Positions 217-61,539 of a DNA stretch of 64,000 nt are shown here, in pieces (positions within the stretch are counted from its first letter, which is position 1; each line of letters starts with the position of its first letter). Source of the stretch: Gibbula magus. Taxonomy: Eukaryota; Mollusca; Gastropoda; Trochida; Trochidae. The DNA is taken from NCBI GenBank assembly GCA_936450465.1, contig OW388290.1:22185457-22249456 (forward strand), in the 5' to 3' direction. Below the pieces are notes generated by a model. That model ran no database searches and was not told the DNA's origin. It was given only the letters and a program-made list of their open reading frames with translations. Position numbers and translations under genes: made by a program.

Positions 217-1205
217 ATGTCGGGCCTGACACAGAGCACCCACACACCTCTAACAGGTAATAAACCTAATATTAACCTTTTGGTTATTTTGTAAAATCGC
301 AGGTTTAGATTGAAATAAATTGAAAGTACACGCAGTATAAAAGAAAGTACCGCCTAAGTTGATTTCGAATAATTCAATATTTAAAGAAAAAAGAGATGCA
401 TTTGATTATGGCATGATACGATTATACATATCTGCAGTAGTTTGAATGAATTATATTGGTGACTGCTTAATTTTCAGTTAAAATATCGTTGTTTAAGGTT
501 GACATGCGCAAGAAATGAAATTTACATCAATATGACCCCTACAGTGTTTAAAATGTTGTAAATGTGTGCAGAATGAGGCATAATATTGATTTCCACAAAG
601 AAGATGCCTTATATGTCGATGAACAGTTGTGTTTTATCCAACAAAAATTCCATTTAAAAAAAAAAAAACACGTATTCCTTGGCTGATGACTAAACGCCTG
701 CACCTTTCAGTTTTAGAATACGACGTCAAAAACTTAAGATATGTGTAATTGAAAATCATACATATAATAAAACCAACTGAGGTGTGTACTTTCTTTTGTA
801 CTTCAGTTTATGTTTTATCCTTTTTAGGCGTGTTTTCGGTAATTCAAATGAATGAAACCAACACAAAAACTGTGTTGTTGCAAGGGTCATATGGCAAGGG
901 AAATAATAGGTGTTGGTATCAATAAGTGAAATTGCATGTGCGACATGAACTCATGTTCTCAAGCAGAGAGATGAAAACACGTGTATCTGAAACTGGTAGT
1001 TTACAAGCTCGTTTTAATGTCTTTCTTTTTAATAGTTAATGCATTGTTTGCAAATTATATATTTTTCTTGTCTCTAGTGATTATTTTAAAGTGTATGCCT
1101 TACTCATTATATAGCCAATGTGTGATTTTTAATTTCAGAACCAAAAAGCCACGATCCTCAGGAAGACAATGCCATTGTTTCGGGACACTGTTCCAGATAT
1201 CACAG
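217..1205 (+). CDS. Candidate first two exons of an unidentified gene
   Basis: I do not recognise this gene. An ATG at 217 opens a frame of 13 codons plus one base, ending at 256 before a GTAATA donor. A second exon, 1139-1205, follows a pyrimidine-rich acceptor (TTTAATTTCAG) and ends at a GTGAGT donor. The phases agree: the G at 256 joins AA at 1139 to make a GAA codon, and the joined frame is open through about 35 residues, ending around SGHCSRYH. The peptide is hydrophilic and rich in Ser, Thr, Pro, Asp and Glu. An earlier ATG at 152 lies in another frame that stops after 26 codons. No later exon could be linked, so this is either the 5' end of a host gene that continues in unseen exons or a chance pair. 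Evidence is limited to splice sites and phase. Confidence 0.3.
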
Positions 1206-2941
1206 GTGAGTTATTTGTCGCTAATTAAGTTAACGTTATCATACTATAGAAAGAGTAAAAATGAATTACTTACTTTCAAAATTGAGTTTTGTTGTTGACT
1301 CTGAATGATTTGAGATGAGAAGTAACGCTAACTTTTTCAATATCTAAAAGGTTTATTTGAAATTATTCTCTAAAAATATCACTAGTCTCAAACGGAGCTT
1401 AAATTACAGAAAGTTTGGGCTGTATTTTCGGATTCTCTTTTAAAGATTTTCAGCCATATTGATCAACAAAATCATAACCTTCTTGTATTTATGAAACTAG
1501 AAAATTTTCTAAACTTCCAGCATCACAGTGTAATGCCATATGCCATGCTGTGATCAGACCGATATGGCTGAACTAGCTAGATGGCCCATCTCGTATGGGG
1601 TGCACTAGGACGAAACAAGTCACGACAAGTGTGTAAACTGTATGTTCCAGAGATAATCTTTACTTTATGCTACTTCGGAGTTCTGTTAATATCAATGTTC
1701 CTTATATCCAATAAATGAATATAAAATCCATAGTCCTCTTTTATTTTGTAAATGTTCTACACTTTCGGTATCAAACCGCGAGGTTGTTTCTCATGCTGTG
1801 CCTGTGACCGATGTCGTTAAACAAGGAAACCCATCACAACAAGTCAAGACCGGTATGTGAATTGTTCATTCTGTGTCTGTCTTGAATGATCCAATAAATA
1901 CATAAGTGGTCCAAATGTTTACAGTTTGATTCAGGTTATGACATTGAAAGTAATGTTCATATCATAAATGTCACAGGGGTGTGTATCACTGAGAAATAGC
2001 GTTTGAAAGACATATACCTGTATAGACTCTACCCTATTAATATATAAAAGGAAAGGGATGACACGGCGAAACCACCCCATGCTCATTCAAAGTCATATTT
2101 GGCATCAACATATTTTTATGGCACAGTCGATGACTACGTTATGAAAGCTTAATGATTTCCCTACAACTGCACTGTAGAAAGCTGATGGTACTGAATGCAA
2201 GGGTGAAGTCATGCTATAAATAGCCTGTGGCATTCAACGTCATCTCAATAGTAATGGATAAATGGATAAAATGTCGATTCCTTCACTGATGTTGTGTTTA
2301 AGAATCTGAAGATGACCATAGACACACTCATGCAAGAAGAGTGTTCTCAAGGTATTGGAATTCAAAAGAAGCAGACAAAACCAAATCACAACTGAACATG
2401 CATAAATACTTTGGAACAAAGGACTTTTAGGGATGAGCATCCCTAAAGTCCTGCAGATACCATGATTTGGCTGATTGGGATTAATTTCGGCTTAAGGACA
2501 GATGGGACGCAGAAATCGAACTCGCTTATGGTAACATTTTGTGAAAAAGTCTAAAAATATATGGATTACCTTGTTTTGGACATTGGCTTATCCGTACACT
2601 AATTGAAAGCCCTTAAATTTACCGTAACGCCTTTTAAACGGTCATTTGACGACATGCCGCATAACGTTACCGCAACCTATTTTCGCGGTAAATATGTTAC
2701 TGTGTGTGTTATTCGAATTACATGCATGCCTCACGTTAGTGACAAATTAAAATCGCCTGATATATAATCAACTGATAGTTATTCTTTCAGCATGCACTCT
2801 TAGATTGATAGTATGTTCAATAATGATTACACGGTCCACCGTCAAAGTTACACTTGAAATCATCAAAACTACCGTGACGTCAGGTTTTTATATTTATGTA
2901 GGTAATTTAAAAAATGACGTTAAAGTTATGAAAAACATTCC
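1206..2941. other. Non-coding stretch, nothing recognised
   Basis: AT-rich sequence with no convincing exon, inverted repeat or tandem repeat. The longest reading frame is about 66 codons and looks spurious. Confidence 0.5.
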
Positions 2942-3350
2942 ATGATCCACTATCATTATACCCCAGACCAAAAAAGGTTGGGGGTTTATAGTAATACAAA
3001 CGATTCCGTCCGTCCTTCCGAAGACAATTTCTGTCCGATCCATTACAGAAAAACTATCATTCTATCTCATTCTTTTAAAATTTTGTACATGTCTACTTCA
3101 CCACTAGGAGAGGTGCATTGCGAAATGTAAACTGATTTGGTGAATGTTTTAATTTTTGGCGATTTAAAATTTTTTTGAACTTAGTCAAATTCTGAGCATT
3201 TTTTGTCCGATCGATTACAGAAAAAACTATTCATCTTATCCTTTTAAAATTTGGCACGTTTTCTTCACCACTGAGACAGGTGCAATGCAAAATGTAACAT
3301 GATTTGGTGATTTTTTTTATTTTTTTTACTTCGTCATATTCGGGGCTAGA
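2942..3350. repeat. Two-unit tandem dispersed repeat with CCGTCCGTCC start
   Basis: Two diverged units of roughly 160 bp lie in tandem. Each contains a GTCCGATC[CG]ATTACAG block, then a TTTTAAAATTT block, then a TTCACCACT...GGTGCA block and an ATGATTTGGTGA-like end. The first unit is preceded by CCGTCCGTCCTTCCG. This is the same style as the repeats at 9.64, 29.0 and 61.5 kb, a type common in mollusc intergenic DNA. The 62-codon frame inside it is not a gene. Confidence 0.55.
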
Positions 3351-5266
3351 ATGAATGCAGCTACTTCTTTGTTGTGATTTGTTAACGTTATCATTTTCTT
3401 TTTCATGTAACTTTCAAAAGCTACTTCTGTGTTCTTGTTGATTTTACTATTTTATATTTCCACCGGTTTTATTTTGGAAAAAGTTTAATTTCCTTTCCTT
3501 TCAGCCATAAACTGCTGTATATCCCTCACTGTGTTTCCATGTACCTGATGTTGCAAGTCACTCGAATGGATCATTATGATGGATTAATTTCCAAAATACA
3601 CCTAGATTATATTATAGAGGAGTTAAATCGGACAACTACGGAGCAGTCACCAGCAGCAGCGGGGTAAAATATATGCAAACGAAGTTGCAGCAGCAGCAGC
3701 CTAATAATAGATACATACATTTGTATATCCTTACGCTGAAAAGCTGGACATAAATTATATGCCGAAATAGTCCCACTGATAGATGGAGGGAAAATAAGAT
3801 CCAACTGAAAAGTAAGACCCCTAAATTTAGAATATTGGTATATTAATATAGTCCCATAGACCCGTATATGTGACCCTCCATCAAAACCCCCTATAGCGCA
3901 ATAGGACCATTTATGGTACCAAACTATAACCCCACTAACCTCATTGCTATTTTAAAAAATGACAGATTAAATCAAGTTGAAAATCATTTGTCCAGAACCC
4001 CTGTCAACTAAGCTTCAAGTTGATACCACTTCTGTGCAATATAAAATGATTCTTACAAAAAACCGTGATTAAGAAAGTTAGTCCCCTTTTGTCATGGTGC
4101 CATTGTCTACCTCTCTACATGACATATCTAAATGTTTACAAGTATTACCGAAAAAGAACAATGTAACACAAACAATCCAATACACCAAAACAATCTACAG
4201 TGTGTCTAGTTTTTAAATCACAAGCTATTAATTACAAAAGAGTGGACCCTGTAATCCATAATCAAACAAAAATGTCAGATCTGAATAATGGCTATCTTTG
4301 TTGGGACTACAGGAAAACTGCTATGATGCAAAACCTGTATCAATTTTCACAAAATGTAAACAGCAAATAAAACACGAATGAAAATGCAACTCGGCAAGCA
4401 AAAACATGCCAAATATTATATATGAAAATCGACGATCGACTATTACTTACTCCACTTGAAATAAACAAAATGGCCTGTCAACTTGGCTAGCGAGGGGAGC
4501 ATGCCTAATGATCATTTTGATATTTTGACACATTCCCGATTTGTTTCACCAAAATGAATGGTTGAATATTTTGCTATAATTGATTTTAGATCTTTAGGTG
4601 AATTCTACCGTGTAAAGCGCCGTATGTCACAGTGTTACAGCTTGTGTCAAATAAAGTAAAGGCGTCAATGGCAAACTTGGCTGACAGACAGGATTGACAC
4701 GGTTCGCGATTTCAAGTTTGAGTTCCCGTTCACGGGGAACAGATTATCATTACCTGAAATTACTATCAACAGATAGTGTTTTGAATTTTGTTTATGTTTC
4801 TGTCCGTGATGTTCTTGTAAGATGCGTTTAACACGGTTAAATTGTCCTTTTGAAATGCACTGAATGTGAATCTGTTGGTAGTCATTGTTGACAATATGGC
4901 GGTGACACTGCAGATACCACTTTCCAGAAATCTTATTCCAATTAACTAATTTGTGATACGGACATCTGATGCCCATCATAAAATAACCAATAATATTCTT
5001 CGTCATCTTATGATTTTAACATTATGTTTGCTATTATGGATCAGGAAAAAAAATCATCGAACTGCACAATGTCAAGTGTTAAATTTTTTTGTTATTCTGA
5101 AAATATAAATTTTAAGAGTTTACCTATCAAAATTAATGTCAAACATTCAGGAAAAGTGTCAAGCAGTTACTAACGTATCATACATTTAATTTTAAGTTGA
5201 AAGGGGTAACTCAATACATTAATTTTAGGGATAAATAACCAGAGATTGAGGAGAGTTTGTTTGAAG
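3351..5266. other. Non-coding stretch with short CAG runs
   Basis: No gene or mobile-element ends were recognised. Around 3640-3700 there are short CAG/AGC runs. The 113-codon minus frame at 4665-5006 has no supporting domain or splice context and is not annotated. Confidence 0.5.
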
Positions 5267-12768: not shown

Positions 12769-13165
12769 AGCTCCGACTTAGTCGGAGCTTTCAGTTTTTG
12801 CGCAGTTTCTGTGGCCGTCGCCGCGTTTTGTATTGGCTATAATTTTTCCCTAGAAGGTTTAGTGAGAACTCATATACATAACAAATAACTTCTTACTTAT
12901 ACCTCTGGGGAATTTTTTTGACATGATCACATTCAAGGTCAAGGTCACGAGTTCTTAAAATCCTAAAATAATCCTTGTAAACACGATAACTTGAACAATA
13001 TTTGTGCTATCAGGCTCTTCTTTGGTGTATATCAACTATGGAGAAGTCCAAGATTTGAAAATGTTTCACTAACATCCGTCAAAGGACAAGGTCATGATAT
13101 GATAACCAGTTCTGAAATCACTAAGTAACCTTTTCCCATGAAGATATTAACACCTCATATAGATA
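12769..13165 (+). repeat. R1 dispersed repeat, left part of interrupted copy
   Basis: It opens with a palindrome (AGCTCCGAC...GTCGGAGCT), then TTTTTGCGCAGTTTC, TTTTGTATTGGCTATAA, CTAGAAGGTTT and AAGGTCAAGGTCACGAG. The same order occurs in the uninterrupted copy at 45226-46410. The copy stops at the 14-bp duplication before the 13166-15005 insertion and resumes at 15020. It has no coding content. Confidence 0.8.
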
Positions 13166-13356
13166 AATTTAACCATGATCTTGTGGACATATCAGGGCCC
13201 GTTACTACCTTTAAAACACATAGTGTACACAAACACCCGTGTTCAAATGCCTTACCCTTTGTTCAGCATACCTATGTGACGTGACGTGACGTCACTTACT
13301 TATGTAGACATATTGCTACATTGTGACGTCATAATCACCTCACTCTAAGGGCCGCC

Positions 13357-14096
13357 ATGCCGCGCGCTAAGCAGCACATAATATGTAAAACGTGTGGAGC
13401 CCGGCTTTCCCGCCGGGACAGCCTTAAAAGACACAATAGTGTTAATCACGGACACACTATTTTCTGTTGCAAACTTTGCGACAGCACTTACAAAAGAAGC
13501 GATGATGCGAGGAGGCATGTCAAAACCAAACACATAGGTATTACAGACATCAATAATACCATTGACTTACGCCTCAAACCCACAAGTATGGAGAACAGCT
13601 CCATCCCGGGACCATCTTCAACACCACCGCTGATACAATTCAACAGTGAGATTGTGGTACGACCACCCGCCAGCCACACCCGTCATCAAACTTTATAATT
13701 CCTAAAGTTATAAAAATTAACTTTAACTGTGAACCTCCAGTTTCGCTACTAAAACTCCGTGAGGTTCCACCCACGAAGACAATCGCCTCATCATCCGCAG
13801 CCTCTCCTACACCAGTAACACCGGTAGGACGCCCTCTGTCACAAACCACTTTGGGACATGGCAGATGTCCATATGTTATTATGCATGGACAGGTCCCAGT
13901 TCCACCATTAAGCAACTGGGACCACTGCATAGATCATTCTGATCTAATCACAGAGGCCTGGGAGGTCCTCCCCAGCTTTAATAAGCACAATGTGCCTGCT
14001 AAGATCCCTATCCAGAAGGTGTACGCCTATACACCCAAGGAAGACAACCCCCTCACCCTTGCCATGAGGGCCACACTGGATGTTCAAGTACTATAG
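13357..14096 (+). pseudogene. Two-C2H2-finger protein frame with one frameshift
   Basis: The first frame, 13357-13698, starts MPRAKQHI and holds two C2H2 fingers in its first 55 residues: CKTCGARLSRRDSLKRHNSVNH and CKLCDSTYKRSDDARRHVKTKH. A Ser/Pro/Thr-rich linker follows. A second frame is open from 13650 to the TAG at 14094-14096 and reads as its continuation: basic and Pro-rich, then GHGRCPYVIMHGQVPVPP, a Trp-containing stretch and KVYAYTPKED. The overlap at 13650-13698 suggests a single indel, either a real mutation or a sequence error. Joined, it would be about 245 residues. The fingers predict nucleic-acid binding; I cannot name the family and do not recognise the C-terminal half. It lies inside the 13166-15005 insertion and so is probably element-encoded. 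Confidence 0.6.
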
Positions 14097-14722
14097 TAAC
14101 TTTTCATTAACATAATGAATAAGTATGTTCCAAGTAAACTCTCCTTACTTTTTTTAATAGAATATAAAGTCATATATTCTTCTTTCAACACCATTTGTGT
14201 TCCTTCATATTTGCTATGACGCAAATTAAACATATACTCTTTTACACTATATGTTCACATGTCTTCATTCGTGAGCCTTTATCAAACTACTTTAGAATGA
14301 TAAGGGCCCCCGAGCCTACATTCCCCTAGGGTTTATAGGCAAAACCTACGAAGTTAAGTTCATTTTGAACAGTACTTACGTACCCTAATGTTGAGCAATT
14401 TGTTGTAAACAAATCGTTTATCTCTACTCACTACACCTTCAAAACTATTCAAACTTCATGTTTAGTTTTCCTATTTTCAGTTTCAAAAGATAACAAAACT
14501 CGTTCTTCTTCTACAGCTGCCCATCTGAGAAGGATAAAAAAAACTTTATTTCTTCAAAACTGCATATGGTCAAATACCTGAAACATATGAAATATATGAC
14601 ATTATATATATTACAATAACTAACAAAAGACATACACTTTACCTGGTCACACATAATCTCCCAAGTTGTAAATTCTTAACTACAATCTGAGTTTGAATTT
14701 TTCGGGAAATTTTGAGTTATAC

Positions 14723-14884
14723 CACCGGAAATACCGGAAGTTACACCGGAACCGGAAGTCCCACCGGAAGTTATCACCGAAAATTTTCGGCAAATCCCAC
14801 CGGATCCGGAAGTCCCACAGGCATACCACCGGAAGTTACACCACCGGGACCATAGGTCACGTGACCACACCTAAGAGTATATAA
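14723..14884 (+). promoter_or_regulatory. ETS-type motif cluster, E-box palindrome and TATA box
   Basis: Seven CCGGAA cores, five of them extended to CCGGAAGT, the consensus of GABP/ETS factors, occur within 14723-14846. The palindrome GGTCACGTGACC with a central CACGTG is at 14855-14866, and GTATATAAGG at 14877-14886. Spacing predicts a start site near 14905-14912, on the hammerhead-like core. The arrangement resembles a polymerase II core promoter or an LTR-like regulatory end. Activity is inferred. Confidence 0.55.
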
Positions 14885-14897
14885 GGAGAGCCAAAAC

Positions 14898-14960
14898 CGA
14901 TGCTTAGTCAGAGTCTGATGAGTCTTACAATAAGACGAAACTAGTTTCTCAAAGCAATCG
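14898..14960 (+). ncRNA. Hammerhead-ribozyme-like motif
   Basis: CTGATGA at 14915-14921 is followed by a perfect hairpin (GTCTT...AAGAC, 14922-14936) and then GAAA at 14937-14940. These are the conserved core and stem II of a hammerhead ribozyme in exact order. GTC at 14907-14909 would be the cleavage triplet. TTAGT before it pairs with ACTAG after GAA, with one G-U pair, as stem III. An outer CGATGCT/AGCAATCG pairing with one bulge extends that stem across an internal loop. This is a type III layout. The weak point is stem I, only AGAGT (14910-14914), giving one pair and a 3-base loop. It may be a degenerate or permuted copy, and catalysis is unproven. Confidence 0.5.
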
Positions 14961-15019
14961 AATCCAATTGCCCCTCAACAGTTGCTAGGGTCACCCCACC
15001 CTTAAACCTCATATAGATA

Positions 15020-26009: not shown

Positions 26010-26491
26010 TTTGACAGCATCGCATGGTAATAAGGAGACATCTTTTAAATGTCTATAGACATATTTTAAACGTCTTATAACTGTCTTTTAAACGTCTTAT
26101 AGACGTCTTTTATACGTCTAGTTCAGAACTACCTTCAGTCGTCTAAACAACGTCTAGCCTTCAACGTCTTTTAAACTTTCATTTTAGACCTATATTTAGA
26201 CGTCTTTTCAACGTCTTGAGTAGACGTCATTTAGACGTTTAATAGACATCTTTAAACGTCTATAGACGTCTTTTAAACGTCTATAGACGTCTTTTAAACG
26301 TCTTATAAATGTCTTTTAAACGTCTTATAGACGTCTTTTAAACGTTTAGTTCAGGACTACCTTTAGTCGTCTAAACAACGTCTAGGCTTCAACGTCTTTT
26401 AAACTTTCATTTTAGACCTATATTTAGACGTCTTTTCAACGTCTTGAGTAGACGTCATTTAGACGTTTAATAGACGTCTTTGTGCCTGCTG
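26010..26491. repeat. GACGTC-rich repeat with 228-bp internal duplication
   Basis: Dozens of AGACGTCTTTTAAACGTCTTATAG-type units, mostly palindromic around GACGTC or AAACGT. A block of about 137 bp starting GTTCAGAACTACC at 26121 recurs at 26349 with few changes. The repeat ends TTTGTGCCTGCTGGG, the reverse of the motif that opens the related copy at 16286. It is non-coding. Confidence 0.75.
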
Positions 26492-27147: not shown

Positions 27148-27305
27148 ACCTATTTTTTCAGTTTTCATGGTCAGGATGTAGCAGATCAGAGGATACAATC
27201 AGACACTTTCTAAATGATAAATAAACATTTATTTATCATTTAGAAAGTGTCTGATTGTATCCTCTGATCTGCTACATCCTGACCATGAAAACTGAAAAAA
27301 TAGGT
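27148..27305. repeat. Perfect palindrome, 78-bp arms, 2-bp spacer
   Basis: Bases 27148-27225 and 27228-27305 are exact reverse complements around CA. The outer edge is ACCTATTTTTTCAG; the inner edge is GATAAATAAA. I checked every base by eye and found no mismatch. It is non-coding in both directions. Confidence 0.93.
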
Positions 27306-30686: not shown

Positions 30687-33600
30687 ATGGAAACATCTTC
30701 TGAAGACACAACAGGTAAGTGAAATCCCTATGATTTAATCATACCTAAATCTAATAATGATGTGATTGAAAAAAAAATCAGAATTAGGCAAAGTTTGTGT
30801 AGTGACTATAATTCACATAGCATCAACCATGTAAATCTGCTTCATCATGCTATACATAACAAATACCCACAACATCAACAGCAAAATGCAATAAACTGTC
30901 AGTAGTTACCTTAATCTCAATGACAAACCAATCTAAATTTTAAAAAATAAGCAGCAATGTAGTGCATATTACAGCTAAGCAGCCTAGCAGACGCCGCATT
31001 AGAGATACTGCTTTCTCATCAACATATTATGATAGTGGAAGTCTTCTGTTGACCTGAGTATATAAAACAATCAATACATTTTTGTGTGATTCAAAGCCCA
31101 AAAAAACATGTTTAATGTATTGTATACTTGTCAGAAAATTATATTTCATCATGTTTATGTAAAAAGTATTTTGCAAAATGAAATTAATAATCCTTTTCAT
31201 ATATCTTAATTTGAAATTGTAAGTGACATAAATTCTGTAATTATATGAAAAAAATTCTAAGATAAATAACAGCGAGTCATAATGTAAAATGATTTAAAAA
31301 TTTAATAATTTAAGTCATATTGAAATAGAGAAACAATTATTGATGACATTCTATGATCATATAAAAAGGATTAAGATTAATATTTATATTTAAAAAAATA
31401 TTTTTTGATTAATTAATTTATTCACAAAAAATAATTAAATAATTAAAACATTTCATTTTTGTTATCTTGAAGAGATACACTTGTACACACTTTACATCAG
31501 TAAATGATTATGTTAAATTCTTATTTCTTTTTCATGACAACACTTCTTTCAATGTTACATGGCTATTAAAATATAAATGGCAGTCAAACTGCTGTAAATT
31601 GTCTACTTGTGAGATGCATAGTGAGTGATAAACTTTTGCAGATATATATTCTTGCTTTTCTTACAGACATCTATACTTTGAAATGCTTTTTTAATTATGA
31701 ATTCATAAAATATATTGAAAATCAAAAATTTATATTTTTACGTCCTGCATAATGGATATTTCTTTTTCAGATGAGCAATTCTTCTGCCTGATTTGTGGCT
31801 TGACTGGTGCTGAAGTGCAAGTTTCTAACAAAGGCCTGTCAACTTTGTCCAAAGTATCTCTGCAGCGCGAAGATGGACTCCATGAGGGAATCGCAAGTGT
31901 TTCAAATGTTGGAATATATGTGCATGAACAATGTCGAAAAAGTTACACTGCTAAAAAGAACATTGCAAAATCAACTCAAGTGGAGACAAGTTCAAACGTT
32001 CGAGTTTTAAGAACACTGTCAAGCAACTTTAATTATGAAACAAACTGTCTGATATGTGCTAAAGAAATTGACTTTGAATATGTGCGTAAACATCCAGCTC
32101 CATCTGAGACCATAAGCAACATTGAGTATGTCAAAGACTTTGGGAAATTTGGTAAAGTTCAAACTACATTACTTGAACTTTGTAACAGCAGACAGGATGA
32201 GGAGTCGACCAACATCAAGGCCCGCATTGCTGCAGCAGGTGATCTCTGTGCAGCAGATTCCAAGTATCACAGATCATGTTTACAGAGATTCCTATCAGGG
32301 CGTGGGACCAGTTTCCAATCCCGAAATACAAGAAATGAAGACTCCGTCAACAACGATGCTTTCTTGTCTTTAACCAGATGGTTAACTTCAACTCAACTGA
32401 ACAATCAGTTCACATTGCAGGATCTACAAAAGAAGCTAAGAACCTATCTTCCTGAGGATGTTGACCCTTACAGCACAAAACACTTAAAGAGACGTTTAGT
32501 AAATCATTTTGGTGAAGAAATCACATTTGCAGAAATTGATGGAAAGACAAATGTTGTCACCTTTTTGGACAAAGCCAATTCAATAATACAAAATTCTTAT
32601 TTGGAAGAAGAAGATGATATTGAGGAGAGAGTGAAGCAGGCCAACATCCTTGGACAACATGTGAAGAATCATCTTGAAGATACAGCCTTGAATGAAAACA
32701 GCCATTACCCATCACCTCAAGACATCAGTATTGACAAGCTGGAGTCCATGATACCAGAAGTTCTCCTTGCTTTTGTCACTGGACTAATGAGGAGCACATC
32801 ATCAGAAAAAGCTAAAGAAAAACAAAGACTTGAAGTGGTCTCACTGTGTCATGCCTTGATTCAAGCTTCTGCACCTCAACCCTTTCTTTCACCCTTGATC
32901 TTATCAACAGGGCTCTTCATCCATCAAACTACGAGATCCAAAGTTTTAATGAATGCCTTCTCTAAACTTGGATTTTCAGCATCCTATGATCAAGTGATGG
33001 AATTTGAAAAAGCAGCCGTGCTGTCCGAGTCTATCGACGACCTTCATCCAGGTATTGAAACGCACAGCGGTGGTGGTGGATTTTGTCAGTGGGTAGCTGA
33101 CAACTTCGATTACAATGAGGATACCTTAACAGGATACAACACAACACATGCTATGGGAATTATTGCTTGCCAGACTCCAGCGTCAAAACACAAGATAATG
33201 ATACCACGACAGTCTTCAATCAAAAGTGCTGCTGACATTGCATCTTCTGGAGATTTTAGGAACATCATCCGGCCATACAAACCAGGAGATTCTACTCTTC
33301 TACCCAAACGGAAATTTGAAAAGTTGGCAAACATAGAGATTGGATCAATGAAGAACTTCCTCATGCTGGATCAACTTTGGATGCTTTCTAATTCGAGGTT
33401 TCAAGTTACACCAAACTGGCAAGGATTTATGTCAGAGATAACTCATGGACAATACCTTTGTTCGTCAATTTTGTATCACCCAGTCCTTCCACTTAATCCA
33501 CAAACAGATGAAGCGGTATACAGCACTATGGTGTTTATTGACAAGCAGAGACAGAAATCCGGACAATGCTGTGCAATGTTGACATTTGACCAAGCCATAT

Positions 33601-36149
33601 ATGCTAAGGGGTACAAGATAAAAGCAGAAAATCCAATTGACTTCAAACACCTACAACTGCGTTTGGGAGGATTCCATCAACTAATGTCTTTTCTAGGATC
33701 TGGCTGTAAATCAATGGAAGGTTCCGGTCTAGAAGAGGTATGGTCCACCGTTTATGCCAGGAACACATTAGCAAAGATGTTTGAAGGAAAAGCCTACACC
33801 AAGACTCTTCGAGCCTGCCTCTTGACTTGTGGAGCTCTGCACACCTTAGTGATGACACATGGAGAAAATGATCAGCTCGAAGATGAAGACTCAGAAACAT
33901 CTACTAGTGCTAACATGTTCAAGGAACTTGAAGAACTGAGTGCTAAATTGCTTAGTAAAGAGCAAGTGATCCGTGATGTCACCAACAGTCAGATTTTGGA
34001 GGATGCGTTTAGCAGGATGGAAGAACAGAAAACACACTTAGAACATTCAAGAACTGCCAAATTATGGATGAACTTCATGTCTTTCATATCTGTTGTCCAG
34101 ATGTTCATACGAGCTGAAAGAACAGGGAACTGGCAGCTTCATCTTAAGGCATCTCAAGATATGTTGCCTTGGTTTGCTGCAACTGGTCACAACAATTATG
34201 CGAAATACTGCAGACTCTACCTTCAAGACTGGATGAATCCATGCACATGTCTTATTGGACCCCTGAGAGATGGTTTATTCACAATCCGAAGGAAAGACAA
34301 TCTTTTCTGGAGTGGCACATGGAGTGATATGCCTATTGAACAGTCCCTTATGAGAGCTGGGAAGACACAAGGAGGTCTCATCAACATCACCCATAGAGAT
34401 GGAGCACGAACCAAGTGGTTGCTGTCTGCTCATGTGATAGCACAGTACACGGATGCGATACGTGCCTTGACAAAAACTACTTCCAGTTGTTGGTTTGATC
34501 ATCACCGTGATCTTAATCCTGGACGTATCTCTCAGGATTTCAAAGATATGCATTCCATCATGGAATTTCTAAAGGCTCACAACCCTTTCAAAGGTGGAGA
34601 AAATTCCCAGCTCAGGAACATAGCCACTGGTCTCATTGCTGACGATCGCGTCAATGTCGACAAAGTCTTGACAATAGGCAACGTAATCCAAGAAAATCTA
34701 ACCAACAAATGTTTTGGAGAAGTTACATTGAAAAAAAGCAACCAAGCAGTTACATTTGCTGTAATGAAGAAACCAGTGAAGCTTTCAGATGGAGATATTA
34801 TCCGTATGTCGTCCACGGAGATGTACCAAAGACTGTTGTCGCTTGCTTGTGTCTCAGGACCTCCATCTGCCAGTGTGTTCAGCTTTGAACTTGCAGCTGT
34901 TGCCCCTGCACTTTTTCACGAAGATGGTTCAATGAGAAAGTCACAAAAGTCTCAACTAGCTCGTCATATCATCAACCTAGATGCGAAGGTAACTGTGACA
35001 GAGATAATAAAGACAGGAGTAACAGTGTTTGATGGTTGTGCAGTTCTCCAACAGATGAAATGGCCAAAAGTTGGGACTCTTCATGATGTATGCCTTGCTT
35101 ACAAAAGTACAATTCTATACAAAGCAATCAGTTCAGCACCCTCATTAGTTGTATTTGACAGCTATGAAGTGACAACGACAAAGGAACTTGAGCAGAAACG
35201 CAGAAGAATGATGAAAACATCTGAAGCTGATGTTGTAGTTGAGGCCAGAACACCTGTTCCATCTGATCAAAGTTCCTTCCTTGCGAACAAGAAGAACAAG
35301 CAGAATTTCATCAATTTGTTGTCTGGATACCTTCAAAGCTCAGGAATAGAAGTAAAACATGCTGGTATGGAAGGTGATGCAGATGTAGTGATAGTGAGAG
35401 AGGCAATCAGATTGTCTAGATCCAACCAGTCAGTTCAGCTAATCTCTGATGATACTGATGTTCTTGTGCTGCTCATCCACCATGTTGATAGAAGGGCATC
35501 AGTCTACATGAAAACAAGAACTTGCACAATTTCAATTCAACAAGCTCAAGTTGCAATTGGAGAAAGCATGTGTAAGTTACTACCATTTCTTCACGCCATC
35601 TCTGGATGTGACACCACATCCTCAATCTATGGATTTGGAAAGGTCAAGCATTTCAACTACCTATCCGCATCTTCTGCTCTTCAGGAAGAGGTACAATTCT
35701 TTGGAGATTCTGCTGCTTCTAAGGATGAAATTCAGAAAGCTGGTGAAACCTATGTTTCAGGACTCTACCCTGGAGGAGGTCATGGGCGGACTTTGAATGC
35801 TTTACGGTATTTGAACATAGCCTCCACTAGGTATGTTCCGATTGAAAGAATGCCACCCACATCCCGAGCATGCTTCTTTCATTCCCTGCGTGTTCATCTC
35901 CAGGTTAACACTTGGCTACAACTGAGGACTGTTCTGTGCAAAGAAGAATATGGCTTCAATGAGTCAGGAGCAAATCTATGTGCAGTGATCACTGACAATA
36001 AGCCAGCTCCCCCTGAACTGTTGAAAGAGATCCGCTGTGCCTGTAAGAGCACAACAAAACTCTGTACCTCTTGTAATTGTCACAAGATGAGGATCTCTTG
36101 TAGTGTCCATTGCAAGTGTGAGGGTGTTTGCCAAAATGGAATTGAGTAG
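30687..36149 (+). CDS. Academ-like transposase with XPG/FEN-type nuclease domain, two exons
   Basis: Exon 1 is 30687-30714 (METSSEDTT plus G) before GTAAGT. Exon 2 is 31771-36149 after TTCTTTTTCAG, and joining gives Asp-Glu in frame. The product is about 1468 residues. The unspliced frame from 31752 (1465 residues) has a weaker start inside the intron; residue numbers here use it. Cys clusters are at 12-15 and 99-102, with a C...H...C pattern to about 190. The central part has conserved blocks likely to carry the DDE triad: DNFDYN (D450/D453), FDQ (D613), WSDMPIEQ (D859/E863). A FEN/XPG-like region spans about 1130-1300: VVFDSYE (D1136), EGDADVV (1207-1213), SDDTDVLVL (1232-1240) and HAISGCDTTS (1281-1290), resembling the helix-hairpin-helix. 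The tail from about 1429 is Cys-rich (CTSCNCHKMRISC). It would cut and rejoin element ends in the nucleus. Catalytic assignments are inferred from motif appearance. Confidence 0.85.
30715..31770 (+). other. Intron of the Academ-like transposase gene
   Basis: GTAAGT donor at 30715 and TTCTTTTTCAG acceptor ending at 31770, 1056 bases, very AT-rich, phase 1. No reading frame of note lies inside. Confidence 0.7.
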
Positions 36150-37050: not shown

Positions 37051-39091
37051 GTGGGAAGGGCGGGGATTTGAAGATATGACACTGTGATCGTGTCGACGAA
37101 GATAGCGCGAATGAAGCTGAGCAGCCGTTGAGAATTTCACATGACGTCATTGGTAACTGGTTAAATTGGATAGCGCAGCGCAATTGATTGCGGGTGCTAG
37201 GTGATGGAAAGAACATGTGGAAGTAAGTGGGAGGGAACGGAAATTAATACGAAGAGTAATAATAATTTTGCTAACCTCGATAAATGTAATTAAATATATT
37301 ATCATTAAATTTAAAGTAGACCTCATGCCTTCAAATCCCATCGAAATACAAACTAATCTGAGAAATAACTAGCAAATAGTCTTCATATTCATTCATGCAT
37401 TCATAATCAATTCTTGTTACATTTATTGAACAAATCCCCAAACGTTTTCATCAACACTTTGATACTTTGTAGTATTTTTCATTTTCAAAAACATCAGTGA
37501 GAAGTAAAAATTTACAATCAACATCAATAATGTAAGAAATGGTTTCATTGACATGTGTTTCACTCCACCAGTCCCAATGGCAATTGTCTGTTCTCAAAGG
37601 AACAATGTTTCAAACTGAAAGAAATGCTTAATGACGTCAAATACTTCACCTATACAATTTCATTCTGGTCTTTTCCGATGATTTAAACAGCTATAGGCTA
37701 TATAAAATATGATTTTTGTTTGCTTTGAAACACTACCTAGCTGCATCAAATAAATACAACTTGACATTTACAACAGTTCTTCTGGGGCTGTTATAATGGA
37801 GCGTTTGATTTTGTGAAAACAGTTTTTATAGTTCAGAAAACAGGTTATTTCCTGTTTAAGAGCATGCTATTTTTTCTTATGAAATGAATATTTTGTTTGG
37901 CCACAAAAGATACAATTTTTTATTAGATTTGACAGAAGATACAGTTGTATAAGTAGAGACAAAACTACTAGAACTTGGGGCTGTATTATTTCACTCATAA
38001 TTAACAAATCAATGATCCAATGTGAATACATACTTGGTGAGTTTTGTATACATTTCAGTAAATTCAGAGTGGTTCAGACATGTTTAAACGGTGTGAATTT
38101 CATTGGTTTGAAAGACCCTATCTCAGTAAATTTCGTTTGAAGGAAGAAACTATTTCTCTAATCTAAACCTTTTACAAATGAAACTTTTACTTCAAAGAAA
38201 TGAAACTTTTGATCGACTTTTTGATTAACTTTGATCTAGGTTTATTCTATTCAAACTACTATTTGGTCAGTCCCGTAACATATAAAGTTCGTAGTAAAAG
38301 TAACCTAAAATAATTCAGGTTTGTTGAGTACACAACTAGAATTGAAACTAGAGTGAAGCATTTAGTTACAGCGGATGAAATAACAGAAGTCTATTTGAGA
38401 GTGTCTGATTTAGAACTTTAAATTTTGTTAAAAGCAGGAGAGAGAACGGTAAAACCAGTTCCATTATCGTGTTAATACATAGGATAAGACTAATAGAAGG
38501 ACTCTTTAAACTCTAACTGAAATATGTTTATCGACCAACCTAGTATCACGACTAGTAGAGAAAGTGATTTAGAATCTTTAAAGGTAATATGTAAAGACTG
38601 AAATGTGAGTGGTTTATGCCACGAGACAAGGAGATCAAATGTATGCAGACTGCAGCTCTTCCACGCTATATGGATACTGACGTTTCTTAGATATTTAAAG
38701 TAAACTTGGTATGCTTATGAATCTGCGCACGGTCAGCCTGGGCCATAGACAGGGAAGGATTTTATTTTGGACCAGGATATTAAATATGTAAGAAAACTTT
38801 GTACATGTATGAGAAAAATAAGTGATAGGCGTTTTGGTATTTAAGAGATTTAAATTAATGTTCTTTCCAAAAGCGAGGGATACATTCGAATGTGTGGCAT
38901 ATCAATTTAACGGTAAACCAATGCGAATTTATTTTCAAAACAATATGGTCGTCTAAACCGTTGGATGAATTCCGATGAAGATACTTCAATGATATACACG
39001 GCCTTCTTGTAAGATGTTAAGTTTAATTCGGCCTGACTGATGTCTTTATACTCAAAGAAGATATTTTGGTATTTCGTTCTTTAAATCATTT

Positions 39092-39267
39092 GCAGGGATT
39101 GGGAAAGACACCTTTGACAATGGGCCATTTTTAGGGCTTTTGGTCATTTTCAGAATTTCAAATGGGCCATTCCCCTTTGAAGTAATAGTAATATTTCAAA
39201 TTTGAATGGGCCATTTTTTCAACCGATGTGCAAAATGGCCCATGGCCCTGCCTTTCCCAGTCCCTGC
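39092..39267. mobile_element. MITE-like repeat, copy 2, with inverted ends
   Basis: The ends GCAGGGATTGGGAAAG and, reversed, GCAGGGACTGGGAAAG form a terminal inverted repeat. ATTT flanks both sides (39088-39091, 39268-39271) as a possible 4-bp duplication. The interior repeats GGGCCAT several times. A second copy in opposite orientation is at 22836-22984. Non-coding, 176 bp. Confidence 0.7.
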
Positions 39268-42050
39268 ATTTGTAAACTCCTTTCTTTTATTTAGTGTCAT
39301 TTATAATTGATTTCATATAGTGTATGTAATTTCCACCAAAATTTAAATGAAATTCGGCTTTCATGACAAAGATATTAATTCTTCAGACGACTGGGAAACA
39401 AATTAGATTAAAAGTACTCGGGTGATACCAAGGGGCAAAAGAAACAATACCATACAAAATACAAGATATATCATTCCACGAGCGATACATACAACTGAAA
39501 TAGAGTTACATCATGTTTTCATAAACCACCTGAGTACTTTATTTCTGAGAAACTCAAGTTTTAAGAATTTTCTCCTTTATTAGACGGGATAGGAGAGTCA
39601 AAAGGGGCTTTTTGTTTTATGGCATCCTATAGAAATAATGTGGCAATAAAATCATTTATAAGTTCATTATTTTGATCAAAACATTATTGTTGAAATAACT
39701 TACGGCTGCTGATAATAATCAAAAGTGGTATGTGTCACAACACCAACACGTAGCAGCTTTACAAATGATGAGCAAATCCTTTAAAGAGAACGATAAACCT
39801 GTTAACTGTTAACCAGGATCACGGTAAACAGTATCGGAATTTGATCCTCTCTAAGGTATAATCTAAACAAAATATAGACTAGAGAGTAATCCGTTACATC
39901 TAAACACAGCTAGTGTCAATTACGGTTCTAGGGAAAGAACTATCGATTCAATTTCCTTACCCAGGCAGTACTGTTTCATTATCTTCAAATGAGTAACACT
40001 TCATTATTGATTTGTCTATGCTGAAGAAGGAATGGTAGTGAAAGCAACTGCAACTGCTTGATTTAAATTTATTTAGTTCACTCATTTAAATGTTGAAACA
40101 TTTAAATTGGTATATGCTGATGCTTAAACGATGACACTAAGCTACTATTTCAGGATACCTGCAAAATTTGTATCTATTAAATCATGTATGTGCATCCTTG
40201 TGATTATTTGTATAACAATTATTTTGATCCCCGAGTACATCACACATGTACATCACTCAAATCAAATCAATGATCCCTTTTCTATGTAATAATAAATTCT
40301 CAAGTTTAGTTTTAACATGTGGTAAAAGGGCATCAGAAGACATTTGAAGACATCTAGGAAAGCTTAAAAATGTCCTCAAATGTAATCGTAAATGTAACTC
40401 AAATACATTGGATACTTTTAAGTAGGTTCATGTGATTATATGTATGTATGCATGGTATAATCAAAAGAAAAAAAATAAAGTAATACTTTTCTGAGAAAAT
40501 GCATCAATGATTGAAAACAAAGGTAATTTTACATAAGTGTGCGATTTGAAGTGGAACCCATAGTAAAAACACTATCAGAGGTCCTTGCATGAACCTTGAA
40601 ATTAACTGATGGAAGATACTGATTGACTTTTATGCAAGTGTGGAGTAAATGATGATCTCACACGGATTCGACCTAACTGTCGATAGGCATGTACGTAAGC
40701 TCCACAGCTTGGATGTATAGACATTCATCTGATTCATATCTTAAGACACGAATCTCTGCTCTAGATATACCACAGAATCTGATCAGAGCTCAACAGGAAA
40801 CCAACACACAAGTCAACTACACCATCAGCCAAAAGAAACGACTACTTGAATTTCGTTAAAATGAAAAATGAAATAATTTCTGAAATATAATCAATGGTGG
40901 TCTCCACATTATGCTGATCAATACTTGAAATGAAAGTCCATTGAAATCGTGGCAAAAACGAGTCAATAACATTCATGAAAACAACTCCCAATGAATACCA
41001 CTATTTCCAGTTTATTCACTTGCGCACCGTTACCACATACATCTGCAGCATCAACACAATGCGTGTTTATATTGTTGCTTTTGATTGTATGAAAATATGT
41101 TTCAAATGGTTTCCTGATCAAGCACTGATTGAACGCTAAACAATGTATGTTGTCTCATTTCAACAATCACCATTCTTTTGTGACATGACAACATCTGAAA
41201 TTATAATATATTATACAGAAATGGTGCAACTTCATAATACTATAATATTGCTAAACTGGTGCCGACAGTGTACATGGCCCCAGTCATGTCACACACCATG
41301 TGACTGCGTCAACACAACATATAGCTGTTGAACAACAGGAAATTAAATGAATAAAAAGTAAATGAAGAAAATATCATCTTTTCCTCACGCAAATTATCAA
41401 AGTGTTGGTTTACTCAGCTGGTGATTTGTTTCTAATGGAATATGTAATCCATCTAATCACTGGTCGAAGTAGGTCAAAGGTTCATGCTCTTTGGGATGAT
41501 GAACTTGAGTGAAAAACGTTTGAATGATATGCTCTTATTTCAAATGTTAAACCTCTCTGTAATATCTGCAAATATTAAACAAAATATTATTACTGTACAA
41601 CATTCAACATTTGGTCACAGTTGAAAATCGTCCGGATACCAAGGTGAACGGTTAAATGAATCATCATTTGCATAGGAATGTATATAGCATATTTGAAATA
41701 CTACCTTGTCGATGGTCGGGGTTCCAGATATACGGGGTCTGGTTAAACGAGATCTCACTCTACATACTTTTATCTGTCAGTTATATGTAAGTTTTATGAC
41801 CTGTTTTTCGAAACATCCATAATCAATTTCAGAAATTCCTATATATAATATCTACTATGGATCTTTCAATATTTTGCCACAACTATTCAACATTATTTGT
41901 CACAGTATTACCGTTTTATATCAACAAATAGTAAATGAAAGTTAAAATGTCTACCGACCTTAAACTACTGACGTTAAATCTAATTTAAACTCATCTTATC
42001 TATATTTTACTAATTTAACAAACGTCTCATCTTCATTTATGTAGAAGCTC

Positions 42051-45038: not shown

Positions 45039-45225
45039 CAAGATATTTACCTTTCTTGATTTCTTCTTCGATTTCAACAGCTATTATTGAAATCTAATGG
45101 TGTCAGATAATGTAATCATAACAGATATGTTTCAGAAAGCAATATAAATCTATACAAACAGATAAAGTGGCTTCAAATGTATATTTGATTTCATGTCCTT
45201 ATTTATAGATTTTCAGCTTATTAGC

Positions 45226-45273
45226 AGCTCCGACTAAGTCGGAGCTGCTATCAGTTTTTGCGCAGTTTCCGTC

Positions 45274-45317
<44 letters not shown>

Positions 45318-46410
45318 TTTGTATTCGCTATAACTTTTTTCCTAGAAGGTTTTGAGAACTCATATACATAACTTCTTACTTATGCCCCTGGGGAATTTTT
45401 TTGACAGGTTCACATTCAAGGTCAAAGGTCAAGGTCACGAGTTCTGAAATCGCTAAAACAATCCTTGTAAACACGATAACTTGAAAAATATTTGTACTAT
45501 CATGCTCTTTTTTGGTGCACATCAACTATAGAGAAAGGCCAAGATTTGAAATGGTTTTCGCTAACATCCGTCAAAGGTCAAAGTCACAGCGAGGGCACGA
45601 CTTAAGTATGCTTTTGCAAAAATGTCTTATTTCAACTATTAACACTTTGAATCATTAAATGATTGTTATACACAATGAAAAGTGATCACTGATTGTGTGA
45701 CCTTGAATTTTAAAAGTCAAGGTCACGAGATAGGGTCAAGGTCAGAGGTTCTGAAATCACTAAATAACGTTTTTCCATGAAGGTATCAACACCTCATATA
45801 TATAGCTTCTTTCTTGTACACCTGGGGAAATATTTTGACATGCTCACATTCAAGGTCAAAGGTCAAAGTCATGAGTTCTGAAATCACTAAAAAAATCCTT
45901 GTAAACACGATAACTTCAACAACTTCTGTGCTATCAGGCCCTAACTTTGTATATATCAACTATGGAGAAAGACCAAGATTTGAACACGTTTTTGCTAAAA
46001 TCTGGCAAAGGTCAAGGTCACAGCAAGGTCACAACTTAAACGTGCTATTGTGAATATGCCTTACGTTAACAATGGACACTTTGAGTCATTGAATGATTGT
46101 TATACACAATGCAAAGTAATCATTGATGGTGTGACCTTGATGGTCAAAGTTCAAGGTCATGAGATATTGGTTAAAGCCATGTTAATCTTTTGATCCAATT
46201 TTGAAATCAGAAAATGGTTTTAAGAACAAAGTTGTGAAAAGTGACCCCAGTAATGATTCAACTTGTTAGAATAACTTGAATAATGAAAAGAAATTTGTCA
46301 AAATAAATTCCCATTTTATTTATGCTGAGGAGAAGGCGGAACAGGGAAAGGCGAGACCCAAAGTTTCGGAGCTGCTCTGCTTTAGCGGTGTCCCGCAAAC
46401 GCTCTTCTAG
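45226..46410 (+). repeat. R1 dispersed repeat, full copy
   Basis: The copy runs from the AGCTCCGAC...GTCGGAGCT palindrome to CCGCAAACGCTCTTCTAG. Inside are two diverged sub-units of about 400 bp (roughly 45380-45800 and 45805-46205), each with AAGGTCAAAGGTCAA, AATCCTTGTAAACACGATAACTT, CTATGGAGAAAGACC and AGTGATCA blocks. It is absent from the matching place in duplication copy 2, hence a later insertion. The 79-codon frame inside is spurious. Confidence 0.8.
45277..45316. repeat. GCC trinucleotide run, 13 units
   Basis: Uninterrupted GCC/CCG run inside R1. The R1 copy at 12769 has only GTCGCCGCG here, so the run expanded in this copy. Confidence 0.95.
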
Positions 46411-60200: not shown

Positions 60201-61539
60201 CCTCACTCAATGAGAGTATTATGAGACAAACCATTAAGGTGGTGTAGTAGATGAAACCAGGTTATAACAAATATGTTTACGTGGGAGTGAGTTGACAAAA
60301 TTCAAATTTCATGCGTATTTTCACCACAGATGGAACACTGCCAAATGAATTGATACATGGAGAACCCCAGAGGTATTATACTTAAAAAGCCGGAAGTAAT
60401 TCCACAAATACATATAATACCTGTCAGGCATTTCTCCCGACTCTTCAGATCTAACCAGGCTAATTGGTATAATGAATACTTCTTTGATTTCCCTTTAATT
60501 TGTACAGGAGTGATACCGATAGGAAGGCAGAATCATACTAACGATGTAAATGTGACTAACGGTGATCCTCCGTGTTATTAAGTTACTTTTAATGTTCTCT
60601 CAAATTAAATGTTTAACGGGATTGTTGATACAAAACGGTTGCAGCCATTGGAATTTTGTTTGAAAAAGAAGTAACTAACTTTAATTGCAGAATATCCTGA
60701 CTGAAGCATACAACATGAATGTAAACATAAATACTAGTCATATGACAAAATACAATAAAATAAAAAAATTTCACAACGTTTTTTTTGTTACAAAAAACTA
60801 CTGGGCGTTAGTGGTCTGACAGTAGTCTCCGAAGACCGCTCTCGTATGAAATCTATCTTGATAAATGGCAACGTCACGTAGATTGTTGATAATTTCTTCC
60901 ATTTTCTACTAATTTGCATTGACGTAAGATGACTAATCAAGTTTATTAGTGACTTTTTCTGGATTACAAGTTATTTTATAGAAATCATAAAGAAATCATA
61001 ATCACAGTTAATTAAATAACACTAATACCACAGTTTATGTTTTGAAAGCATTTAATCATTTCAAGGATTCTTATATTCCGTATCGTTGCTAGACAACAGG
61101 TGAATTCTTAAGTAAACATGGCATTGAATAACCAAATTAAATCCTCTCAGACTTTTCTAAGGTAGCGAATCAGATACAACTATTTAAAAAAATCTTGGTA
61201 GACTTATCTATTCAGACAAACTATTTGTAAATGAAAAGTATTTCTTATAAAATATTAGAGAACATCATCCCTCTCCAAGTGGAACTGATAACATTGAAAG
61301 TAATCTATTAAACACTAAATGTCACTTGTCAGGTCAGATGCGTTGATAAGATAGCAATTTGTCAAGATCGAATGTACGAGACCATGATACATATTAGGCC
61401 ATGATAAAATATCCTTTCAGAATCTCTCAGGCAGTTTAATGATTAGTTCTCCACAGAATTGTGGTGACAGATCATTAACCATGGGTGCGAGTGATGAACG
61501 CTTTGGTTCATCTTTCCAATGTAGCACTATTCATGTTTA

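Follow-up and report, generated by a model that had tools for sequence, protein, structure and literature searches.

A 1,840-bp insertion at positions 13166-15005 of a 64,000-nucleotide stretch of the Gibbula magus genome (the whole of which is hereafter referred to as the window; all oriented features described below lie on the plus strand) appears to be a dead, 5'-truncated and frameshifted copy of a Penelope-like element (PLE), because longer copies in the same genome carry a reverse transcriptase joined to an endonuclease (RT-EN) and tandem copies show the PLE layout. These elements make up a third, and still poorly understood, class of retroelements in eukaryotes. As far as literature searches reach, the element described here departs from the known PLEs in two respects, namely, a zinc-finger ORF (ZnF), under purifying selection, that lies behind paired CRE sites, and two fixed insertion termini, denoted A and B. 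We consider it highly probable that the truncated copy in the window derives from a full unit encoding both RT-EN and the zinc-finger protein, and that insertion of this element would involve nicking of both target strands, with reverse transcription starting at A and B.

The insertion, its relatives and the full unit

The insertion is bounded by a perfect 14-bp target-site duplication (TSD; ACCTCATATAGATA), with the left copy at 13152-13165 and the right copy at 15006-15019; the two agree at all 14 positions and can be extended on neither side. The window contains a second copy of R1, a repeat of about 430 bp, at 45217-46424 (the matching repeat is also given as 45748-46424), and this copy matches both flanks of the insertion, with the two matches overlapping exactly on the 14-mer at 45791-45804, which is present there once (13 of 14 positions). 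The fact that both flanks meet at a single 14-mer in the second R1 copy shows the insertion, as was already argued, from the duplication and the empty site, in an earlier reading of the window made from its letters alone (hereafter, the sequence-only reading). What that reading had to say on the features missing from the inserted DNA was borne out as well: neither inverted ends nor an LTR pair were found for the window element, there is no poly(A) at 15005, and the window copy itself contains no RT. Nor does it contain an EN. A second copy of the element was not found within the 64-kb window.

The genome-wide check proposed in the same reading, for copies, their ends and duplications, and longer copies with a polymerase, was informative on each count. 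The search of the species' own genome (1.47 Gb; 40 of 160 candidates scored) listed 43 matches. The exact last base of the element is the 3' end in 29 of these 43 scored matches, with one more match ending one base short and four ending ten bases short, and the 5' ends vary. Exact TSDs of 10-19 bp were identified at 19 of 39 loci; the other 20, among which L008, L011 and L012 share one flank, show no TSD of at least 10 bp in the 700 bp searched and, with the exception of L002, are outside the tally of insertions given below. From the 3' end shared by 29 of the 43 matches and the exact TSDs at 19 of the 39 loci, we infer target-primed reverse transcription (TPRT). Four copies (L002-L005) extend beyond the 5' end of the window copy: RT and endonuclease frames lie upstream of L002, and a GIY-YIG endonuclease lies upstream of L005. 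A GIY-YIG domain was detected in L009 and L010 (1.3e-6 and 5.7e-6), and in the distant relative L048, an RVT_1 domain (3.1e-9) and a GIY-YIG domain (5.5e-6), the latter C-terminal to the RT, are encoded in a single 488-aa frame (L048:2257-3720). The RT of the relatives contains the motif YVRFIDDIF, which we take to resemble the corresponding part of PLE RTs.

Further hallmarks of PLEs are present in these sequences, namely, pseudo-LTRs (pLTRs) arranged head to tail in a tandem or partial tandem (L052 and L051), a predicted minimal type I hammerhead ribozyme within the pLTR, and 5' truncation combined with TSDs of variable length and a fixed 3' end with a tail. The window copy (13166-15005), which has the common 3' end and lacks both RT and EN, is assigned to the PLEs because its relatives carry RT-EN upstream; in the classification used below, it belongs to the A-only type. 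LTR retrotransposons have TSDs of 4-6 bp and long terminal repeats, and such an element, or a solo LTR, is ruled out by the 14-bp TSD, the lack of an LTR pair and the GIY-YIG endonuclease of the relatives. LINEs encode an APE or RLE endonuclease and have a poly(A) or repeat tail, and a LINE is ruled out by the GIY-YIG endonuclease of the relatives and the lack of poly(A). A viral origin was dropped given that searches of IMG/VR with peptide and ribozyme patterns found no viral relatives. Among the three classes that the sequence-only reading had put forward, the 5'-truncated PLE stands, whereas the retrozyme-like passenger and the new type of retroelement find no support. By the refuting condition set in that reading, namely, that longer copies turn out to be an ordinary element, its view that the insert is of unknown class fails, although the longer copies are PLEs and neither LTR nor LINE elements.

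The anatomy of the full unit can be traced in tandem and in-line copies. The order in the tandem L052 is the end of a zinc-finger ORF, four CCGGAA motifs, CACGTG, TATA, the hammerhead, an RS-rich frame, RT, GIY-YIG and a second zinc-finger ORF, after which the start of L052 is repeated at 97%, for a unit of about 5.1 kb. The partial tandem L051 shows the end of the zinc-finger ORF, the hammerhead and the start of the RT, in this order, and L053 and L054 contain RT, EN and ZnF in line; the RT is interrupted in L054, and likewise in L048, and L048 and L053 represent near-identical families. As predicted from these copies, the full unit consists of a pLTR (with ETS-type sites, an E-box, TATA, a type I hammerhead and a C-rich hairpin), the RS-rich frame, RT-EN, an internal CRE region, the zinc-finger ORF and the next pLTR. 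An ATG inside the hammerhead was considered as the start of the RT ORF and rejected for L052, where the frame that begins at this ATG closes and another one opens further on; L052 differs in this respect from PAc, a Poseidon/Penelope PLE of Anolis carolinensis, in which, according to the accessible text of the source, the RT ORF starts at an ATG inside the hammerhead. The same text (PMC11167929) describes features of PAc that are also seen in the Gibbula element, including an RT with a C-terminal GIY-YIG endonuclease, pLTR tandems and a hammerhead near the junction of the pLTR and the ORF.

Before the discovery of Terminons, PLEs were seen as compact, with one RT-EN ORF or with two ORFs and no EN, as stated in the available part of PMC6431247. 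Terminons themselves, as described there, are PLE relatives that resemble the Gibbula unit in having hammerheads and extra ORFs but are giant and telomere-associated, whereas the Gibbula unit is about 5.1 kb long, encodes a GIY-YIG endonuclease and inserts with TSDs.

The zinc-finger ORF and its putative promoter

The two-finger reading frame noticed in the sequence-only reading is present in the window copy but, compared with the single open frame of 256 codons in the relative L010 (L010:608-1375), is split over two frames. The first part (13357-13698) encodes two C2H2 fingers (approximately 13384-13449 and 13462-13533; Pfam zf-C2H2, E 3.4e-6). The second part, in the other frame (13650-14096), encodes a conserved GHGRCPYII...EAWEVLPSF domain that is 85% identical to the intact relative and for which no Pfam match was found. 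Searches with either window frame alone found no protein homologues at E 0.001 and also none at E 0.1. A profile built from five sequences yielded three matches among 4,103 candidates, all bearing C2H2 fingers and covering 21-37% of the query, and these matches probably involve the fingers only. Compared with PDB, the profile matched canonical tandem DNA-binding fingers, with the matches confined to the fingers in the 60 rows listed out of 121.

The intergenic region between RT-EN and the zinc-finger ORF contains a conserved block, TAACCATGATCTTGTGGACATATCAGGGCC (13170-13199), which is found in seven of the eight aligned rows, the eighth (L046) starting beyond the block. Just 5' of the zinc-finger ATG lies a pair of TGACGTCA (CRE-type) sites (13287-13331), 37 bp apart, which form a putative internal promoter. 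Both sites are present in seven of the eight regions, with a spacing of 37-39 bp across the relatives except for L046 (25 bp); the eighth region, that of L052, is cut short and contains a sole site.

The zinc-finger ORF evolves under purifying selection. Between the two subfamilies (L001/L002/L007 and L003-L006/L016), the dN/dS ratios are in the range of 0.17 to 0.21, with dS of 0.41-0.55, and the changes between L001 and L005 are distributed over the three codon positions as 20/26/67 (p 3e-8). Three copies, L014, L017 and L029, are in neither subfamily and give ratios of 0.16 to 0.45 against the others. Within subfamilies, dN/dS varies from 0.12 to 1.6 on few changes and is greater than 0.2 for 10 of the 13 pairs, in line with the decay of individual copies. 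Given that dS between the subfamilies (about 0.5) exceeds the divergence of the adjoining non-coding parts, recombination or constraint may have affected parts of the element.

The zinc-finger ORF is retained in all four distant relatives (L045-L048), at 40-51% amino acid identity, with PLE sequence on one side and, on the other, a pLTR that shares the promoter motifs and the ribozyme. In L045 and L048, the EN is located upstream, on the same strand as the ZnF (together with the RT in L048); in L046, RT-EN is inverted relative to the ZnF; and in L047, only the end of the EN is present, in both directions. The genome was also searched for EN (150 hits scored of 2,679 candidates) and for ZnF (150 of 2,691 candidates scored, with 110 hits). 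Among the 150 scored EN hits, 13 have a same-strand ZnF downstream at a distance of 200-299 bp, 17 are head to head with a ZnF, and 120 have no ZnF match nearby among the ZnF matches listed; conversely, one of the 150 scored EN hits lies within 5 kb of 39 of the 110 listed ZnF hits. A stop at B could account for many of the EN arms, but the ZnF may be missing from some families.

Because its place, spacing and CRE pair are kept across families and dN/dS between subfamilies is low, we read the zinc-finger ORF as a gene of the element, which probably encodes a putative DNA-binding factor and is expressed from its own putative CRE-type promoter. The protein may serve in the regulation of transcription, the packaging of RNA or the choice of targets. 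Capture of a host gene fragment between PLE pLTRs, as in the case of Pen3a/NRPS in Adineta vaga, would imply that this ORF is not an element gene. Such pLTR-mediated capture is documented (accessible text of PMC3846280), the fingers match DNA-binding fingers of the host type, and for 71 of the 110 listed ZnF hits, no scored EN hit (of 150) lies within 5 kb, although the weak ones among these could be C2H2 genes with no relation to the element; yet capture does not readily account for the shared location, spacing and CRE pair of ZnFs that are only 40-51% identical between families, nor for the low dN/dS between subfamilies, and the fetched member of the C6 cluster (L045) is itself a PLE. We consider this alternative improbable. 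In the Adineta vaga elements, as far as the same text goes, the carried gene is a captured host gene, in contrast to the conserved ORF in Gibbula.

The impression of the sequence-only reading that a zinc-finger frame fits no known family well is upheld within the reach of literature searches: among titles and abstracts of the open-access literature, we found no PLE described as having a second ORF for a zinc-finger protein, nor one with a second, distant start site. A clade of EN-containing PLEs with a conserved ORF of the DNA-binding type, located behind its own putative CRE-type promoter, would widen the current picture of PLEs.

Two fixed termini, A and B

Site A is the tail of the promoter region (pLTR) and, in the window copy, comprises the hairpin AGGGU-CACCCC-ACCCU and the 3' terminus (14987-15005) that is common to 29 of the 43 matches. 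Site B is located just after the EN stop (...CCCTTTGTTTCTCCAATT(T)). Each terminus lies just 3' of its own hairpin, that of B having the form GAAACA-...-UGUUUC. For both the A and the B hairpin, folding is predicted in four of the five representatives of the families, although one of each four is no better than shuffles.

Among the 18 TSD copies that were examined for a left arm (the nineteenth TSD copy being the window copy), 12 have, at the left TSD, a piece of inverted endonuclease region, the outer end of which falls within an 11-bp interval at B. The locus L002 is a single composite of about 6.2 kb in which the 14-bp TSD (found in L009) touches the inverted B end, and in L046 and L047, which represent distant families, an inverted left arm ending at B is accompanied by 15-bp TSDs. 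The opposite arrangement is seen in L055, a 5.6-kb insertion with a 17-bp TSD, in which an inverted A end and an inverted ZnF are followed by a direct RT-EN (an open frame of 758 codons) that runs to B. The layout of L056 (16-bp TSD) is similar except for a short A arm and no ZnF; in C4, a TSD of 17 bp accompanies an inverted A tail, and in C10, which lacks an A arm, the TSD is 11 bp long. All five additional RT-EN copies without a ZnF hit downstream, which were inspected by eye in partial sequence, end at B. Together with L055 and L056, this brings the RT-EN copies without a ZnF directly downstream that end at B to seven of the seven examined, which were picked partly for this very lack; the in-line copies L045, L048 and L052-L054 run through B into the ZnF.

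Altogether, we tallied 26 TSD-flanked insertions: A and B lie head to head at the two ends in 18 of them, A alone is present in seven (L005, L006, L022, L030, L034, L036 and the window copy), and B alone in one (C10); the TSDs are 13-17 bp in length in 21 of the 26. The copy C15 looks B-only and is outside the tally, its sole TSD candidate being an AT repeat, and no TSD was found for C3 and C1 in the part that was fetched. An inverted A opposite A was found in none of the 39 loci by BLAST (E 1e-10) and a motif scan of the left flanks, which very short or diverged arms could escape. The fixed location of A and B at opposite ends of insertions points to two separate start sites of reverse transcription, with each strand of the target using one of them in insertions that have both arms.

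Inverted structures joined head to head have been described in PLEs (PMC3846280) and from twin priming of LINE-1 (PMC2837659), in both cases as far as the accessible parts of these reports go, and the opposed arms could be ascribed to ordinary twin priming, or to later rearrangement, with no second fixed start site. Ordinary twin priming, however, is not expected to place the outer end of the second arm at a fixed internal position, whereas in all 15 insertions that have an inverted left arm (in the window family, L046 and L047), this end coincides with B, and the reverse view, with A inverted and B at the right end, is provided by L055, L056 and C4. Such an origin of the arms seems improbable to us, and two start sites remain the preferred explanation.

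Two described systems are comparable in this respect. According to the accessible text of PMC11167929, PAc cleaves and extends both target strands, inserts into AT-rich targets, as seen here, and has an internal start at an AC-rich stem-loop; it differs in having a single ORF and a pair of start sites that lie next to each other and delimit its tail, whereas the Gibbula unit has a downstream zinc-finger ORF and a putative second start site far off, after the endonuclease. The Pen1-Pen6 elements of Adineta vaga, in the available portion of PMC3846280, share with the Gibbula element a pLTR with TATA and an initiator, an optional tail, TSDs (8-10 bp in their case), head-to-head inverted arms and the carriage of a gene between pLTRs. 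The inverted left arm in the Adineta vaga Penelope elements is a pLTR, in contrast to the Gibbula copies, where it runs to site B, past the endonuclease. Insertions with A and B opposed would provide natural end-maps of insertion by a PLE acting on both strands and offer testable start sites for the reaction addressed by the in vitro work on the Anolis element.

The pLTR promoter, the ribozyme and a possible route of replication

The promoter motifs listed in the sequence-only reading are all present. The pLTR promoter includes a cluster of CCGGAAGT at about 14720-14842, which we take to be ETS-type sites; 4 to 11 CCGGAA motifs precede the ribozyme in L045-L048, L051 and L052. The E-box CACGTG (14858-14863) occupies the same place in L045-L048 and L052 and was not found at this place in L051. 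The TATA box, TATATAAG (14878-14885), is located 32 nt upstream of the predicted transcription start, A14910.

The hammerhead-like core near the 3' end, also noticed in the sequence-only reading, is genuine and is predicted to be a type I ribozyme (14899-14960), with stem III ACTAGT at 14940-14945, a predicted cut at 14946/14947 and covariation across 25 distinct rows. The core (14902-14946) matches Rfam Hammerhead_3 with 30.7 bits, below the gathering score of 48.5 (E 7e-4 for 3 kb and 0.015 for the window), and 30 Markov simulations of 64 kb, scanned on both strands, produced one comparable core with a stem II of at least 5 bp. Pairing in stem II reaches 99.2%, and three of its pairs have changes in both strands; stem III is an invariant, self-complementary ACUAGU. 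The outer stem I shows a compensatory change (TTGCTT/AAGCAA in L045 and L047, TTGCTA/TAGCAA in L046 and L048) but is only 72% paired over the whole alignment, partly via one-base gaps that shift the helix. The inner stem I, 2-4 bp in length in the type I reading, is kept in 24 of the 25 rows, the exception being the window copy, in which the first inner pair is mismatched. The self-complementary stem III would suit a dimer, and minimal animal PLE hammerheads were reportedly found by Cervera and De la Pena in 2014 to work as dimers.

The covariation over the 25 rows favours type I over type III, and the Rfam match to the latter misleads: a type III hammerhead, of the sort present in plant LTR retrozymes, is the best Rfam match in the window copy and is nevertheless most unlikely, given that its helix III has no compensatory pair, that the pairs adjacent to the cut fail in 10/25 and 7/25 rows, that this helix is absent in all four distant relatives, and that the inner stem I of the type I fold is conserved. 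The type I ribozyme is shared with animal non-LTR retrozymes, in which, as described in the accessible text of PMC7229834, it is likewise part of a retroelement. A passenger of this kind, that is, a small circular-RNA hammerhead element moved in trans that had gained a gene, would agree with a hammerhead core near the 3' end and with the lack of RT in the window copy, but is scarcely credible for an element whose copies share a 3' end past the ribozyme, not at its cut, and whose relatives carry RT-EN: the same text describes retrozymes as short non-coding tandem repeats, with monomers of about 170-400 nt, whereas the Gibbula unit is about 5.1 kb in length and codes for RT-EN and a zinc-finger protein. 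The ribozyme cut was also considered as a general 3' terminus and rejected because insertions run past it.

In the mechanism that we propose for this PLE, the RT-EN protein would nick both strands of the target, reverse transcription would begin at internal positions of the RNA immediately 3' of a hairpin, namely, at site A for one strand and at site B for the other, and the two cDNAs would meet head to head. When one arm alone is kept, the outcome would be a simple 5'-truncated copy, such as the A-only copy in the window. The zinc-finger protein, produced from its own CRE-type promoter, would be a probable DNA-binding factor of the element.

That the ribozyme spans the predicted transcription start suggests that PLE hammerheads have a specific function: an RNA starting at A14910 would lack the outer 5' strand of stem I, whereas a read-through RNA would contain the whole stem. 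Because of this predicted difference, a bolder scheme can be entertained, in which replication would consist of two parts, with a separate RT-EN RNA that extends to hairpin B and a zinc-finger/pLTR RNA that extends to hairpin A. The first RNA would run from the pLTR start just inside the ribozyme through RT-EN, with an incomplete and uncleavable hammerhead; the second would combine the zinc-finger gene with the pLTR and a complete, cleavable hammerhead. The enzyme would then load the two RNAs onto the two nicked strands of the same target, one RNA per strand, yielding arms joined head to head, and the zinc-finger protein may organise the pairing of the RNAs or switch between the two promoters. 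We regard this scheme as possible but doubtful.

It was predicted beforehand that RT-EN arms start at the ribozyme-internal transcription start and end at B, with an inverted A outer end, and this prediction is supported in part only, so that our estimate for the scheme with two RNAs, already tentative, was lowered slightly. Among the five copies concerned, which were chosen for having no ZnF downstream, all five end at B, and the predicted start together with an inverted A tail was found in C4 only. The RT-EN arms of C4 and L056 start at, or within a few bases of, AGTCTGATGAG, the equivalent of A14910, 32 nt past TATA by comparison with L045. The start of C15 coincides exactly with the predicted ribozyme cut and that of C10 is inside the tail, neither copy having an A arm; the 481 bp obtained for C3 contain no ribozyme, and C1 has a whole pLTR upstream.

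Reading frames and 5' end of the related copies

In the related Penelope-like element (PLE) copies at L048/L049/L050, L009, L051 and L053, loci of the same genome, the end of an N-terminal RS-rich frame adjoins or overlaps the start of the frame for the reverse transcriptase and C-terminal GIY-YIG endonuclease (RT-EN), suggesting from frame arrangement that RT-EN may be translated as a second cistron. The RT of the L048 copy is interrupted by a frame on the minus strand (approximately 1040-3884 of the joined L049/L048 stretch, in L049), which we take to be a LINE-type endonuclease-RT. In a single case, the C15 copy (L057), an RT-EN arm has its 5' end precisely where the hammerhead is predicted to cleave, ACTCAAAAGC, as would follow from copying of a self-cleaved RNA.

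A second clade with a zinc-finger match

A second PLE clade in this genome is represented by endonuclease matches of about 60% identity (for example, C16:10426732-10427271); in it, too, a zinc-finger match occurs 200-225 bp after the endonuclease. Among the 57 endonuclease matches below 65% identity, drawn from 150 scored of 2,679 candidates, a nearby zinc-finger match is in line in 7 and head to head in 6.

Other features of the window

Two pairs of similar, collinear segments, 38198-40236 with 50134-51477 and 45039-49449 with 57936-61524, are offset by approximately 12 kb, show 67-83% identity and represent an old tandem duplication. The window also contains a tandem array of 22-bp units of the AGACGTCTTTTAAACGTC type (26036-26481), a bantam microRNA-like hairpin on the minus strand (27193-27265; E 0.0033, its 35.4 bits falling short of the gathering score), a 1,476-codon open frame with a Cys-rich C-terminus on the plus strand (31719-36149), and fragmented transposase frames, presumably mariner-type judging by sequence, on the minus strand (62384-63477).
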